39,219 nt of DNA, from assembly GCA_014384375.1 (NCBI GenBank), contig JACNFY010000029.1, positions 1 to 39,219 of the forward strand. The letters run 5' to 3'. Position 1 is the first letter of the stretch. Each line of letters starts with the position of its first letter. The notes beneath the pieces were generated by a model that saw only the letters and a program-made list of their open reading frames with translations, did no database searches and was not told the origin of the DNA. The DNA is from Nanobdellati archaeon (GTDB taxonomy: Archaea; Nanobdellota; Nanobdellia; Woesearchaeales; GCA-2686295). Shown piece after piece: positions 12,251 to 31,268 of the stretch. Both the position numbers and the translations under genes were made by a program.

Positions 12251-12320
12251 GTTTTTTAGAAAAATTCCTTCTATTTATAAAACTTTCTATTTTCGTCACT
12301 TATTAGTGGTTATAAAGGTA

Positions 12321-12472
12321 TGGGCCCAGGGAGACTCGAACTCCCGACCTCCGCCGTGTCGAGGCGACGTCATTTGTGGAACGTTTTCACCGTGTGGTTG
12401 AGCAACGTTAGTTGCGAATGCAGCATTTCGTTGTCAACGGGCGAAACCGTTGAGCCACTAGACTATGGGCCC
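12321..12472 (-). tRNA. tRNA-Val(GAC) with D-loop intron of about 78 nt
   Basis: Acceptor GGGCCCA/TGGGCCC with discriminator A, anticodon stem TCGCC/GGCGG, T-arm GGGAG TTCGAGT CTCCC. The body matches tRNA-Val(CAC) (GTCTAGTGG, ATGACG). The anticodon loop is TCGACAC, giving GAC (valine) but with C instead of the near-universal U at position 33. Between GTCTAGTGG and AAATGAC lie about 78 extra nucleotides (roughly 12377-12454), beginning with the hairpin CAACGG-TTTCGC-CCGTTG. The exact splice sites are uncertain by a few bases. A shared structured leader precedes it. Confidence 0.85.
12435..12452 (-). repeat. intron hairpin module, copy in tRNA-Val(GAC) D-loop intron
   Basis: CAACGG, loop TTTCGC, CCGTTG, at the 5' end of the intron. 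The identical sequence starts the anticodon intron of tRNA-Ser(CGA), and stem-covaried versions occur elsewhere in the window. Confidence 0.75.
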
Positions 12473-12533
12473 AAGCCTTTGCAAAAGCCTTGAGGGAAAG
12501 CAAGCTCCCTCTGGTCGCGACGCTGAAGCGTCA
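12473..12533 (-). ncRNA. structured leader of tRNA-Val(GAC), repeat copy 2
   Basis: The second copy of the leader seen before tRNA-Val(CAC). Positions 12488-12533 differ from 3983-4027 by one base plus the GACGC hairpin loop (TTCA here, GAA there), and the AGCCTTTGCAAAAGC block adjoins the tRNA. The changed loop with an intact stem argues for RNA structure. TATA at 12554-12562 lies about 25 bp before it. Confidence 0.5.
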
Positions 12534-24061: not shown

Positions 24062-24328
24062 ATGCCCCGCACGGGACTTTCGCTAGTGGTTTCGATTTGC
24101 GAAGTAAATCCTCCGCCCGAAGGGAAGGATCTCGTCGTCAATGGGCGAAACCATTGTTTCGAACCCGTGTCCTTGCCTGTCTCTGGGAACAGAGACCTCA
24201 ACAATCTCTGATTGCTCGCCGCGAGAGGGCAAGATGATTGGTTATCCAACCTGTACTGCTTTATGCGGTACGAATTTTGGTTAAGCTTTTGGCTTGCCCA
24301 AAAGGTTACCGGACTACACCAGCGGGGC
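24062..24328 (-). tRNA. tRNA-Glu(CTC) with three introns
   Basis: Acceptor GCCCCGC/GCGGGGC with discriminator A. The D-arm begins GTGTAGTCCGG, interrupted by about 68 nt (about 24241-24308), resuming CCAATCAT. The anticodon stem TTGCC pairs with GGCAA around loop CTCTCG-A (anticodon CTC), with a 43-nt intron at 37/38 (24178-24220) folding into CAATC-AGA-GATTG and GTCTCTG/CAGAGAC hairpins. The T-stem ACGGG/CCCGT holds TTCGAA...T with an 81-nt intron at 59/60 (24076-24156); exon TTCG pairs with intron CGAA as in a bulge-helix-bulge motif. Removing about 192 nt leaves a 75-nt tRNA. Probably co-transcribed with tRNA-Lys upstream. Confidence 0.87.
24138..24155 (-). repeat. intron hairpin module, copy in tRNA-Glu T-loop intron
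   Basis: CAATGG, loop TTTCGC, CCATTG, one base after the 5' splice site. Compared with the Val and Ser copies, one stem base pair (C-G to T-A) changes on both sides. Confidence 0.72.
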
Positions 24329-24418
24329 ATAGTGTTGATGAATCCGTTAGGATTCCTGCGCCCGAAGGGAAGCGGCTTGTTGTCAAGGGGCTAAACCCTT
24401 GGACTGCACCAGCGGGGC
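24329..24418 (-). pseudogene. orphan 5' piece of tRNA-Glu with intron-like sequence
   Basis: Between tRNA-Lys and the complete tRNA-Glu lies a second 5' tRNA-Glu segment: acceptor GCCCCGC, TG, then GTGCAGTC, one base different from the complete gene. It is followed by CAAGGG-TTTAGC-CCCTTG, the same hairpin that begins other introns, then a stretch similar to the tRNA-Glu T-loop intron (CTTCCCTTCGGGCG) and a GAATCC-TAAC-GGATTC hairpin. No 3' tRNA part follows before the complete tRNA-Glu. It may be a duplication remnant, a half of a split tRNA, or an alternative 5' exon. Confidence 0.6.
24384..24401 (-). repeat. intron hairpin module, copy in orphan tRNA-Glu piece
   Basis: CAAGGG, loop TTTAGC, CCCTTG: stem positions 4 changed on both strands relative to other copies, loop one base different. 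Confidence 0.7.
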
Positions 24419-24423
24419 GTGTA

Positions 24424-24529
24424 TGGGTCCACTGGGACTTTCTGTTAAAAAGCTTGATGACTTTTTAATTTCGAACCCAGGACCTGCCGGTTAAGAGCCG
24501 GCTGCTCTACCAGGCTGAGCCATAGACCC
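24424..24529 (-). tRNA. tRNA-Lys(CTT) with T-loop intron of 32 nt
   Basis: Acceptor GGGTCTA/TGGACCC, discriminator A, D-arm GCTCAGCCTGGTAGAGC, anticodon stem GCCGG/CCGGC around CTCTTAA (anticodon CTT), variable AGGTC, T-stem CTGGG/CCCAG. The T-loop reads TTCGAA, then 32 nt (24438-24469), then T, so the intron is at 59/60. The intron has a perfect TTAAAAAG/CTTTTTAA stem. Removal leaves 74 nt. A TATA box (GATATATAAAC, about 24555-24565) lies 27 bp upstream and probably drives Lys, the orphan piece and Glu as one transcript. Confidence 0.92.
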
Positions 24530-24554
24530 ATAGAGGAAAGAAACTTCTAAAATG

Positions 24555-30943: not shown

Positions 30944-31060
30944 CGTCGGGGCCGGGATTTTCACCCGTAAACATAACAAGTTATGCAGGATTTGAACCCG
31001 GAAGCCTAAAAAGGCAGCGGAGTGTCAATCCACCGCAATACCTGATTATGCGACCCCGAC
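30944..31060 (-). tRNA. serine-type (class II) tRNA with apparent GAC anticodon and T-loop intron of 33 nt
   Basis: Acceptor GTCGGGG/CCCCGAC with discriminator G73, D-arm GCATAATCAGGTATTGC as in tRNA-Ser(CGA), and a long variable arm GCCT-TTTT-AGGC; these are serine features. The anticodon stem GTGGA/TCCGC encloses TTGACAC, which reads GAC (valine) rather than any serine anticodon; a one-base shift would give TGA but breaks the stem. T-stem CCGGG/CCCGG, TTCAAA then 33 nt (30958-30990) then T. The intron shows a textbook bulge-helix-bulge: TTCA with TGAA, AAT bulges on both sides, CCTG with CGGG. Mature length 84 nt. Confidence 0.8.
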
Positions 31061-31101
31061 ATTATAAAAAAATTTAAATAGGTCAACAGTTTATTGTTAT
31101 A

Positions 31102-31137
31102 GAGTGTCAATCTGCTGCAATGCCGCTTTATGCGGCC
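31102..31137 (-). pseudogene. degenerate 5' fragment of the serine-type tRNA
   Basis: On the same strand and just upstream of the class II tRNA is a copy of its D-arm to anticodon-loop part. GG-CGCATAA, ATTGC and GATTGACACTC match; the acceptor and 3' half are absent. Substitutions create a stable GCCGC-ATAAA-GCGGC hairpin. On the plus strand this hairpin is followed by a T-rich run (31137-31146) and could act as a terminator or attenuator ahead of cbf5. Confidence 0.55.
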
Positions 31138-31268
31138 TTTTCTTTTTTAGAATAAGTCCTTAATAAAAGTTTAGTGAGAATTTTCGTAATATTTCTAGAT
31201 TTATCGGAAAACCAAAACTTAGTCAAAAACCAAAACCTATTAAAAAAAGCTTATTCTTTCTTTTCTCC

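Follow-up and report, generated by a model that had tools for sequence, protein, structure and literature searches.

What does a gene with the body of a serine tRNA and the anticodon of a valine tRNA do in an archaeal genome? This question is raised by a locus on contig JACNFY010000029.1 of a Nanobdellati archaeon (assembly GCA_014384375.1), of which a stretch of 39,219 nucleotides, here called the window, was analyzed. An earlier reading of the sequence (the original prediction) had noticed this class II tRNA and suggested that it might insert serine at GUU/GUC codons or be a pseudogene. The architecture described here, namely an intron-containing serine-type tRNA with a divergent gene for a short, predicted antisense RNA at its 5' side, is well supported by the sequences. 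Its best reading, which we consider probable, is a toxin-antitoxin pair, in which a tRNA that mistranslates is the toxin and an antisense RNA that keeps it silent is the antitoxin. The earlier interpretation is thus supported in part; it had overlooked the intron in the T loop, six sister genes in the same genome, an order-wide family with A at position 35 (A35), and the adjoining antisense RNA gene.

An intact serine-type tRNA with a valine anticodon

The body of the window tRNA is that of a serine tRNA, with G73, a long variable arm, and a D arm (TCGCATAATCAGGTATTGCG) of the same type as those of the Ser tRNAs of the genome. It is identical at 62 of 84 positions to the genome's own tRNA-Ser(GCT), against 50–51 of 84 for its own Val tRNAs, and it is a class II tRNA, whereas the latter are class I tRNAs with A73. 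The anticodon is not a serine anticodon: in the arm GTGGA-TTGACAC-TCCGC, with U33, GAC is the only reading compatible with the stem. A shifted anticodon, TGA in an 8-nt loop, was rejected because it leaves the stem unpaired and because the sister genes carry other A35 anticodons. The observation of a serine-type tRNA with a GAC anticodon is thereby confirmed, and charging by seryl-tRNA synthetase (SerRS), which the original prediction had drawn from it, is plausible in view of the identity elements and of the greater likeness to tRNA-Ser(GCT).

The acceptor stem (GTCGGGG/CCCCGAC) forms all seven pairs. The T arm is interrupted by an intron that, as read from the sequence, has the geometry of archaeal bulge-helix-bulge (BHB) introns: a T stem CCGGG/CCCGG, a 4-bp central helix (TTCA/TGAA, 4/4 pairs), and two 3-nt bulges (AAT/AAT). 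With the intron removed, the minimum-energy fold of the tRNA is a full cloverleaf (z-score -3.6), and none of 200 shuffled sequences folded as well. Because of the T-loop intron, the gene was called neither by ARAGORN nor by Rfam at the gathering score, and its score for RF00005 in a search of the whole genome was 19.6 bits. Two covariance models, R1 and R2, gave it 80.4 bits (E = 2e-16) and 110 bits, respectively, the window tRNA being a seed of both. An error of sequencing in the anticodon loop, for which the original prediction had allowed, is unlikely because the loop segment GATTGACACTC recurs about 80 bp away inside the antisense cassette described below, and because non-serine anticodons recur in unrelated genomes.

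The host genome and its genetic code

The host is a Woesearchaeota-like DPANN archaeon, represented by a metagenome-assembled genome (MAG) of 1.27 Mb that is 95.5% complete and has many tRNA introns. An inventory of the Ser and Val tRNAs, which had been suggested as a check, revealed ordinary Ser tRNAs (GCT, TGA, and GGA) and class I Val tRNAs (CAC, TAC, and GAC), and a Phe tRNA is also present; Ser-CGA, Ile-GAT, and some others were not found in this inventory, which was made by search and from selected stretches and may miss genes. The genome contains, besides these, seven serine-type class II tRNAs with G73, a T-loop mini-intron, and non-serine anticodons, namely, GAC (window), GAT, CAG, GAA, and three copies of TAT.

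GUU and GUC together make up 4.3% of the codons of the window genes (GUU, 33 per 1000), and AUA makes up 5.1% (51 per 1000). In the one protein that was aligned, Cbf5, GUU/GUC sites coincide with Val in 59% and with Ile in 27%, and Ser is absent among the residues listed. Because these sites are clearly still Val or Ile, GUU/GUC have not been reassigned to serine, and the window tRNA must, to judge from the alignment, be mostly inactive. The idea that these codons (and others) now mean serine in the host, for which only the presence of the window tRNA speaks, is also opposed by the three class I Val tRNAs; its probability is next to nil, and it was rejected. The normal Ser, Val, and Phe tRNAs and the Cbf5 alignment indicate that the window tRNA is unneeded for decoding and not very active. 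A complete Ser set together with a silent locus had been named as evidence against a functional gene: the ordinary tRNAs were indeed found, but silence is also the expected look of a module repressed by antisense RNA.

A family of serine-type tRNAs with A35

Relatives were searched with R1 and with R2, a second model that includes the intron. The data are MAGs, and taxonomic spread is expressed by kinship. With a cutoff of E <= 1e-14, R2 had matches in 60 of the 193 genomes searched in the order, some of the matches being ordinary Ser tRNAs; in a draw of 279 genomes from the phylum (E <= 1e-15), 43 had matches. All but two of these 43 belong to the same order, and the one of the two that was examined (L288) has a normal Ser-GCT. 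Among 77 extracted loci, 72 rows were called non-Ser, including three normal Ser tRNAs that have an intron in the arm (GGA and GCT of the window's own genome, and CGA of G188).

A35 was found in 68 of the 69 non-serine anticodons, in many genomes and in all three architectural classes (A, B, and C) defined below. The A35 anticodons seen (GAA, GAT, CAG, GAG, AAG, CAA, GAC, TAT, AAC, TAG, and CAC) read codons of Phe, Leu, Ile, and Val only. Fifteen later loci, outside the set from which the rule was made, comprised 13 with A35 and two ordinary Ser tRNAs (GCT and TGA). G73 is present in 71 of 72 rows, the pairs of the variable arm are formed in 95.7%, U33 occurs in 63 of 72 rows, and position 37 is a purine in most. 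All four pairs of the BHB central helix are formed in 64 of the 72 rows. When 71 relatives were aligned, 97.7% of the cells were base-paired and compensatory changes on both sides were recognized at 24 of 28 pairs, with a covariation score of 0.694, compared with 0.175 after shuffling and at most 0.087 for slid structures. Because of this covariation and the intact cloverleaf, the window tRNA is no pseudogene or fragment, contrary to one of the options originally considered. As a separate observation, one locus (L234; G119:C38:1100-4000) is an array of five tRNAs of the family within about 2 kbp, in which class A and class B alternate.

A predicted divergent antisense RNA gene beside the tRNA

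A partial copy of the same tRNA lies upstream of most of the family tRNAs. This copy looks like the D arm plus anticodon arm (class A) or the anticodon arm plus variable arm (class B). In the great majority of loci, the cassette has its best match in the tRNA that it accompanies, ahead of all tRNAs from other genomes; for the target segment of the window, the exact match is 11 nt long, against a maximum of 9 nt with any other-genome tRNA. Each of the eight predicted antisense RNAs tested had its most favorable duplex energy with its cognate tRNA. At most loci the order is divergent: a transcription factor B recognition element (BRE) and TATA box are followed, at a distance of about 26 nt, by the predicted RNA, which at its 5' end can pair with the anticodon arm or variable arm of its own tRNA, and then by a hairpin and a T-run.

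The TATA box is often only 6–20 nt from the tRNA, at a distance that varies widely (standard deviation, 10.6), and being too close, it cannot serve the tRNA. From the TATA center to the complementary segment the distance is 23–27 nt in 42 of 47 loci, compared with 10.9 loci on average and at most 21 in 5000 permutations, and the A-rich, BRE-like flank lies on the antisense side in 26 and on the sense side in two of the 47. None of 41 control (ordinary) tRNAs showed this arrangement. A T-run such as TTTTTCTTTATTTTT ends the predicted antisense RNA, and a similar one occurs at nearly every locus that has an upstream cassette; the hairpins are modest (mean z-score -0.9). The features of the window locus are listed in Table 1.

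Table 1. Features of the tRNA and of the predicted antisense RNA gene in the window
Feature	Position	Strand	Remarks
Class II serine-type tRNA gene, anticodon GAC	30944..31060	-	G1 = 31060, G73 = 30944
T-loop intron, 33 nt	30959..30991 (about)	-	Exact cut sites in the AAT bulges uncertain (1-2 nt)
Long variable arm GCCT-TTTT-AGGC	31004..31015	-	Arm recognized by SerRS; from sequence and cloverleaf fold
Antisense target segment GATTGACACTC	31020..31030	-	Anticodon loop with the end of the 5' stem strand and the first nt of the 3' strand
Anticodon loop TTGACAC	31022..31028	-	Anticodon GAC = 31024-31026
A-rich BRE-like stretch of predicted antisense promoter	31065-31072	+	
TATA box TTTAAATA of predicted antisense promoter	31073..31080	+	Directed away from the tRNA; ~25 nt from TATA center to complement
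Predicted antisense RNA	31102..31148	+	Complementarity to anticodon stem and loop at the 5' end (seed, 31102-31112); hairpin and T-run follow
Hairpin GCCGC-TTTAT-GCGGC of antisense RNA	31122..31136	+	From D-arm copy; fold
T-run CTTTTCTTTTTT, predicted antisense RNA terminator	31137..31148	+	Similar T-runs at other cassette loci
Candidate sense-tRNA promoter element CTTTTATTAAGG	31158..31169	-	Would read through the antisense cassette; weak, putative

In the sense direction, a hairpin followed by a short matching segment has the look of a CRISPR RNA (crRNA), and the upstream copy might then be a CreA-like guide RNA that steers an RNA-guided effector to the tRNA gene. This explanation was set aside as very improbable, for the promoter spacing, the side of the BRE, and the T-run all suit the opposite strand, and the match differs at many D-arm positions. 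Hardly any credence is given to the idea that an ordinary Ser tRNA was duplicated in tandem and then decayed, leaving the copy and the odd anticodon as neutral remnants. The cassette clearly comes from a tRNA copy, with remains of the acceptor stem and D arm; however, the order-wide recurrence, the constant promoter spacing, and the locus-specific matching form a cross-genome pattern that already contradicts such decay, as do the covariation of the tRNAs, the A35 rule, and the lack of the arrangement in all of the control tRNAs. A split tRNA that is trans-spliced from the upstream half was also rejected, as no acceptor complementarity exists and the common segment has the same sense.

Class C loci (for example, in G011, G031, G044, G168, and G186) have no upstream cassette. 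The opposite-strand T-run usually abuts the 5' end of the tRNA, and the opposite strand of the intron reads AACCGAAAG and then NTWTTTGAA in most members. Here, a BRE/TATA-like element inside the T-loop intron may give rise to a cis-antisense RNA that would end at this T-run. The candidate promoter element CTTTTATTAAGG of the window tRNA resembles CATATTAAGAA elements located about 36 nt upstream of class C tRNAs.

The loci near Cbf5 indicate that genomes acquire and lose the module and that the anticodon it carries changes. Beside Cbf5, the anticodon is GAC in the window and GAA in genome G006 (L034); G188 (L042) has CAC and GAT in tandem, a few kbp from Cbf5; and in a close relative (L033), whose Cbf5 is 76% identical, the same two genes are separated by about 40 nt, compared with 347 nt in the window. 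As to sequences around the cassettes, no general signal of complementarity was found between the tail of the cassette and the intron of the tRNA, and the promoter element upstream of one locus had BLAST matches at useful E-values only in its own genome. A scan of viral contigs with an exact pattern gave no match, which is weak evidence given the exactness of the pattern. A motif, CACTGGACA or CACTAGACA, sometimes in tandem, lies shortly before a TATA box upstream of the antisense cassettes in L114, L119, L120, L219, L236, and L260, and is possibly an activator site common to several genomes.

A putative RNA-only toxin-antitoxin module

Serine within hydrophobic cores is among the most damaging of substitutions, and for this reason a tRNA that inserts it there should be toxic when active. 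Besides those of Leu and Ala, the Ser body is about the only kind that can be charged with a wrong anticodon. SerRS reads G73 and the variable arm, not the anticodon; a Ser anticodon is no determinant of charging, and yeast is killed by a Ser tRNA that carries a Pro anticodon (PMC6827378). Because SerRS ignores the anticodon, a Ser body with a changed anticodon would stay charged and miscode.

We propose that the first RNA of the module is a seryl-acceptor tRNA, whose T-loop intron would be cut out by the archaeal splicing endonuclease, and whose anticodon, changed to the A35 type, would place serine at hydrophobic codons (GUU/GUC for the window tRNA), with toxic effect when the tRNA is active. 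The second would be a short antisense RNA transcribed from the divergent BRE/TATA next to the 5' end of the tRNA; its 5' end would pair, in class A, with the stem and loop of the anticodon and, in class B, with the variable arm, which is the handle of SerRS, and it would end with the hairpin and T-run. By masking or destroying the tRNA, this RNA would act as the antitoxin, and the cell might benefit through addiction, defense, or stress response. The toxin-antitoxin reading is suggested because antisense RNAs against the anticodon and against the variable arm would both disable the tRNA. At the sequence level, the pairing of an RNA antitoxin with an adjacent RNA toxin is seen in the complementarity, promoter spacing, and terminator. 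It appears somewhat likelier than not that toxin-antitoxin systems of a novel type are widespread across one DPANN order, with a seryl-tRNA toxin that miscodes hydrophobic codons and an antisense antitoxin that blocks the anticodon or the SerRS-binding arm.

Several points weigh against the proposed toxin-antitoxin module. The covariance models were built mainly from A35 members and could slightly favor A35, and their E-values are rough; one locus (G186:C16) has the anticodon GCC, with C35. In some class A/B loci (CAG_C9 and TAT_C15 of the window's own genome), the antisense match is weaker or differently placed. The sense promoter is uncertain, as a transcript from the upstream element would cross the antisense cassette, and in class C the evidence for the antisense promoter, from which a cis-antisense RNA might plausibly start near the anticodon arm, is a motif. 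Finally, C33 or A34, which are unusual for decoding, occur at some loci, and the standard 31–39 pair is absent in 18 of 71.

The last two features favor a reading in which the tRNA-like RNA does not decode, but serves as a regulatory RNA or as a decoy, for example for tRNA-cutting effectors, under antisense control; allo-tRNA-like RNAs that are unusable for translation are known and have been speculatively tied to toxin-antitoxin systems or transposons (PMC7609411). However, G73, the intact variable arm, U33 and a purine at 37 in most members, and the limitation of A35 to sense codons of hydrophobic residues are best accounted for by charging and decoding, and we regard this alternative as decidedly unlikely. 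Also unlikely is a controlled and tolerable mistranslation, in which the antisense RNA would adjust the replacement of hydrophobic residues by Ser to a low level, in the service of a stress response or of a more diverse proteome. Cells tolerate mistranslation at low levels and at times profit from it (PMC6827378, PMC7082066), and the anticodons of one genome cover several hydrophobic codon boxes; but the strict A35 and the commonness of target codons such as GUU and AUA would cause broad damage, and the relative L033, apparently of the same genus, lacks the module at the Cbf5 site.

If the toxin-antitoxin reading is true, these would be natural, multicopy miscoding tRNAs restrained by dedicated antisense RNAs, with a tRNA used as a weapon or switch, and they would add a class to the toxin-antitoxin systems and provide a natural example of antisense control directed at an anticodon. 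Selection for a wrong amino acid at chosen codons would bear on the fidelity of the genetic code, on self-defense or addiction in DPANN symbionts, and on how many "mis-annotated" tRNAs with a conflict between isotype and anticodon truly function. The paired design can be tested with two short RNAs.

Introns in other tRNA genes of the host

Several other tRNA genes of the host contain introns. The class I tRNA-Val(GAC) at 12320-12473 (- strand) of the window has a long D-loop intron and the loop TCGACAC, in which C33 replaces U33; ARAGORN with introns miscalls it as Ser(CGA). A tRNA-Lys(CTT) with a T-loop intron is located at 24424-24530 (- strand), and downstream of it, at about 24200-24400 (- strand), partial and apparently complete intron-containing sequences similar to tRNA-Glu(CTC) were found. 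Sequence blocks (GTTTCGNCCGTTGAC...) are common to D- and T-loop introns of unrelated tRNAs (L017, L019, L024, L027, L003, and window 12320-12473), which suggests intron spreading within the genome. Introns also occur at unusual positions (L012, L030, and L011), for example inside the anticodon stem of Ser-GCT, and standard tRNA callers therefore give wrong isotypes for this genome.

Comparison with known systems

No published description of such a tRNA/antisense pair was found among the open-access papers searched, and the likenesses are to systems that each have some of its features. The T-loop intron with BHB geometry is similar to those of archaeal tRNAs with BHB introns at non-canonical positions (PMC4033280, PMC4090602), but the class C intron may also hold an antisense promoter. 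Nematode nev-tRNAs (Hamashima 2012, reviewed in PMC4033280) are likewise class II tRNAs with class I anticodons, including UAU; these are eukaryotic and leucine-charged, with no antisense RNA described in PMC4033280, whereas the present family is archaeal and has G73. The allo-tRNAs (Mukai 2017, reviewed in PMC7609411) resemble it in their Ser type, many non-serine anticodons, and, for some of them, a speculative link to toxin-antitoxin systems. However, allo-tRNAs are bacterial, their acceptor-T arms are of the 8/4 or 9/3 type, their anticodons are spread across the code, and no antisense partner is described in PMC7609411, whereas the family has 7/5 arms (from model and fold), only A35, a T-loop intron, and an antisense cassette. 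Mistranslating tRNA-Ser variants of laboratory yeast (PMC6827378) also combine a Ser body with a wrong anticodon, and are toxic and need tuning; these are engineered, whereas the archaeal tRNAs are natural, multicopy, and paired with an antisense gene.

An adjacent antisense RNA gene as the antitoxin is a feature of type I toxin-antitoxin systems (PMC6563280), in which, however, the toxin is a peptide, whereas that of the module would be a tRNA. The nearest system is CreTA, an RNA-RNA toxin-antitoxin pair that guards CRISPR-Cas (PMC8501985), in which CreT sequesters a rare tRNA by means of a mini-ORF (open reading frame), and CreA is crRNA-like and needs Cascade. No CRISPR repeat was recognized around the window locus, and no repeat-flanked guide in the cassette; cas genes were not searched for. 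In both systems the two partners are RNAs, translation is or would be hit through tRNA biology, and the antitoxin finds the toxin locus by base pairing. In contrast to CreTA, a tRNA is the toxin candidate of the module, and the candidate for the antitoxin is an RNA antisense to the anticodon or variable arm of that tRNA; no crRNA-like antitoxin was seen.
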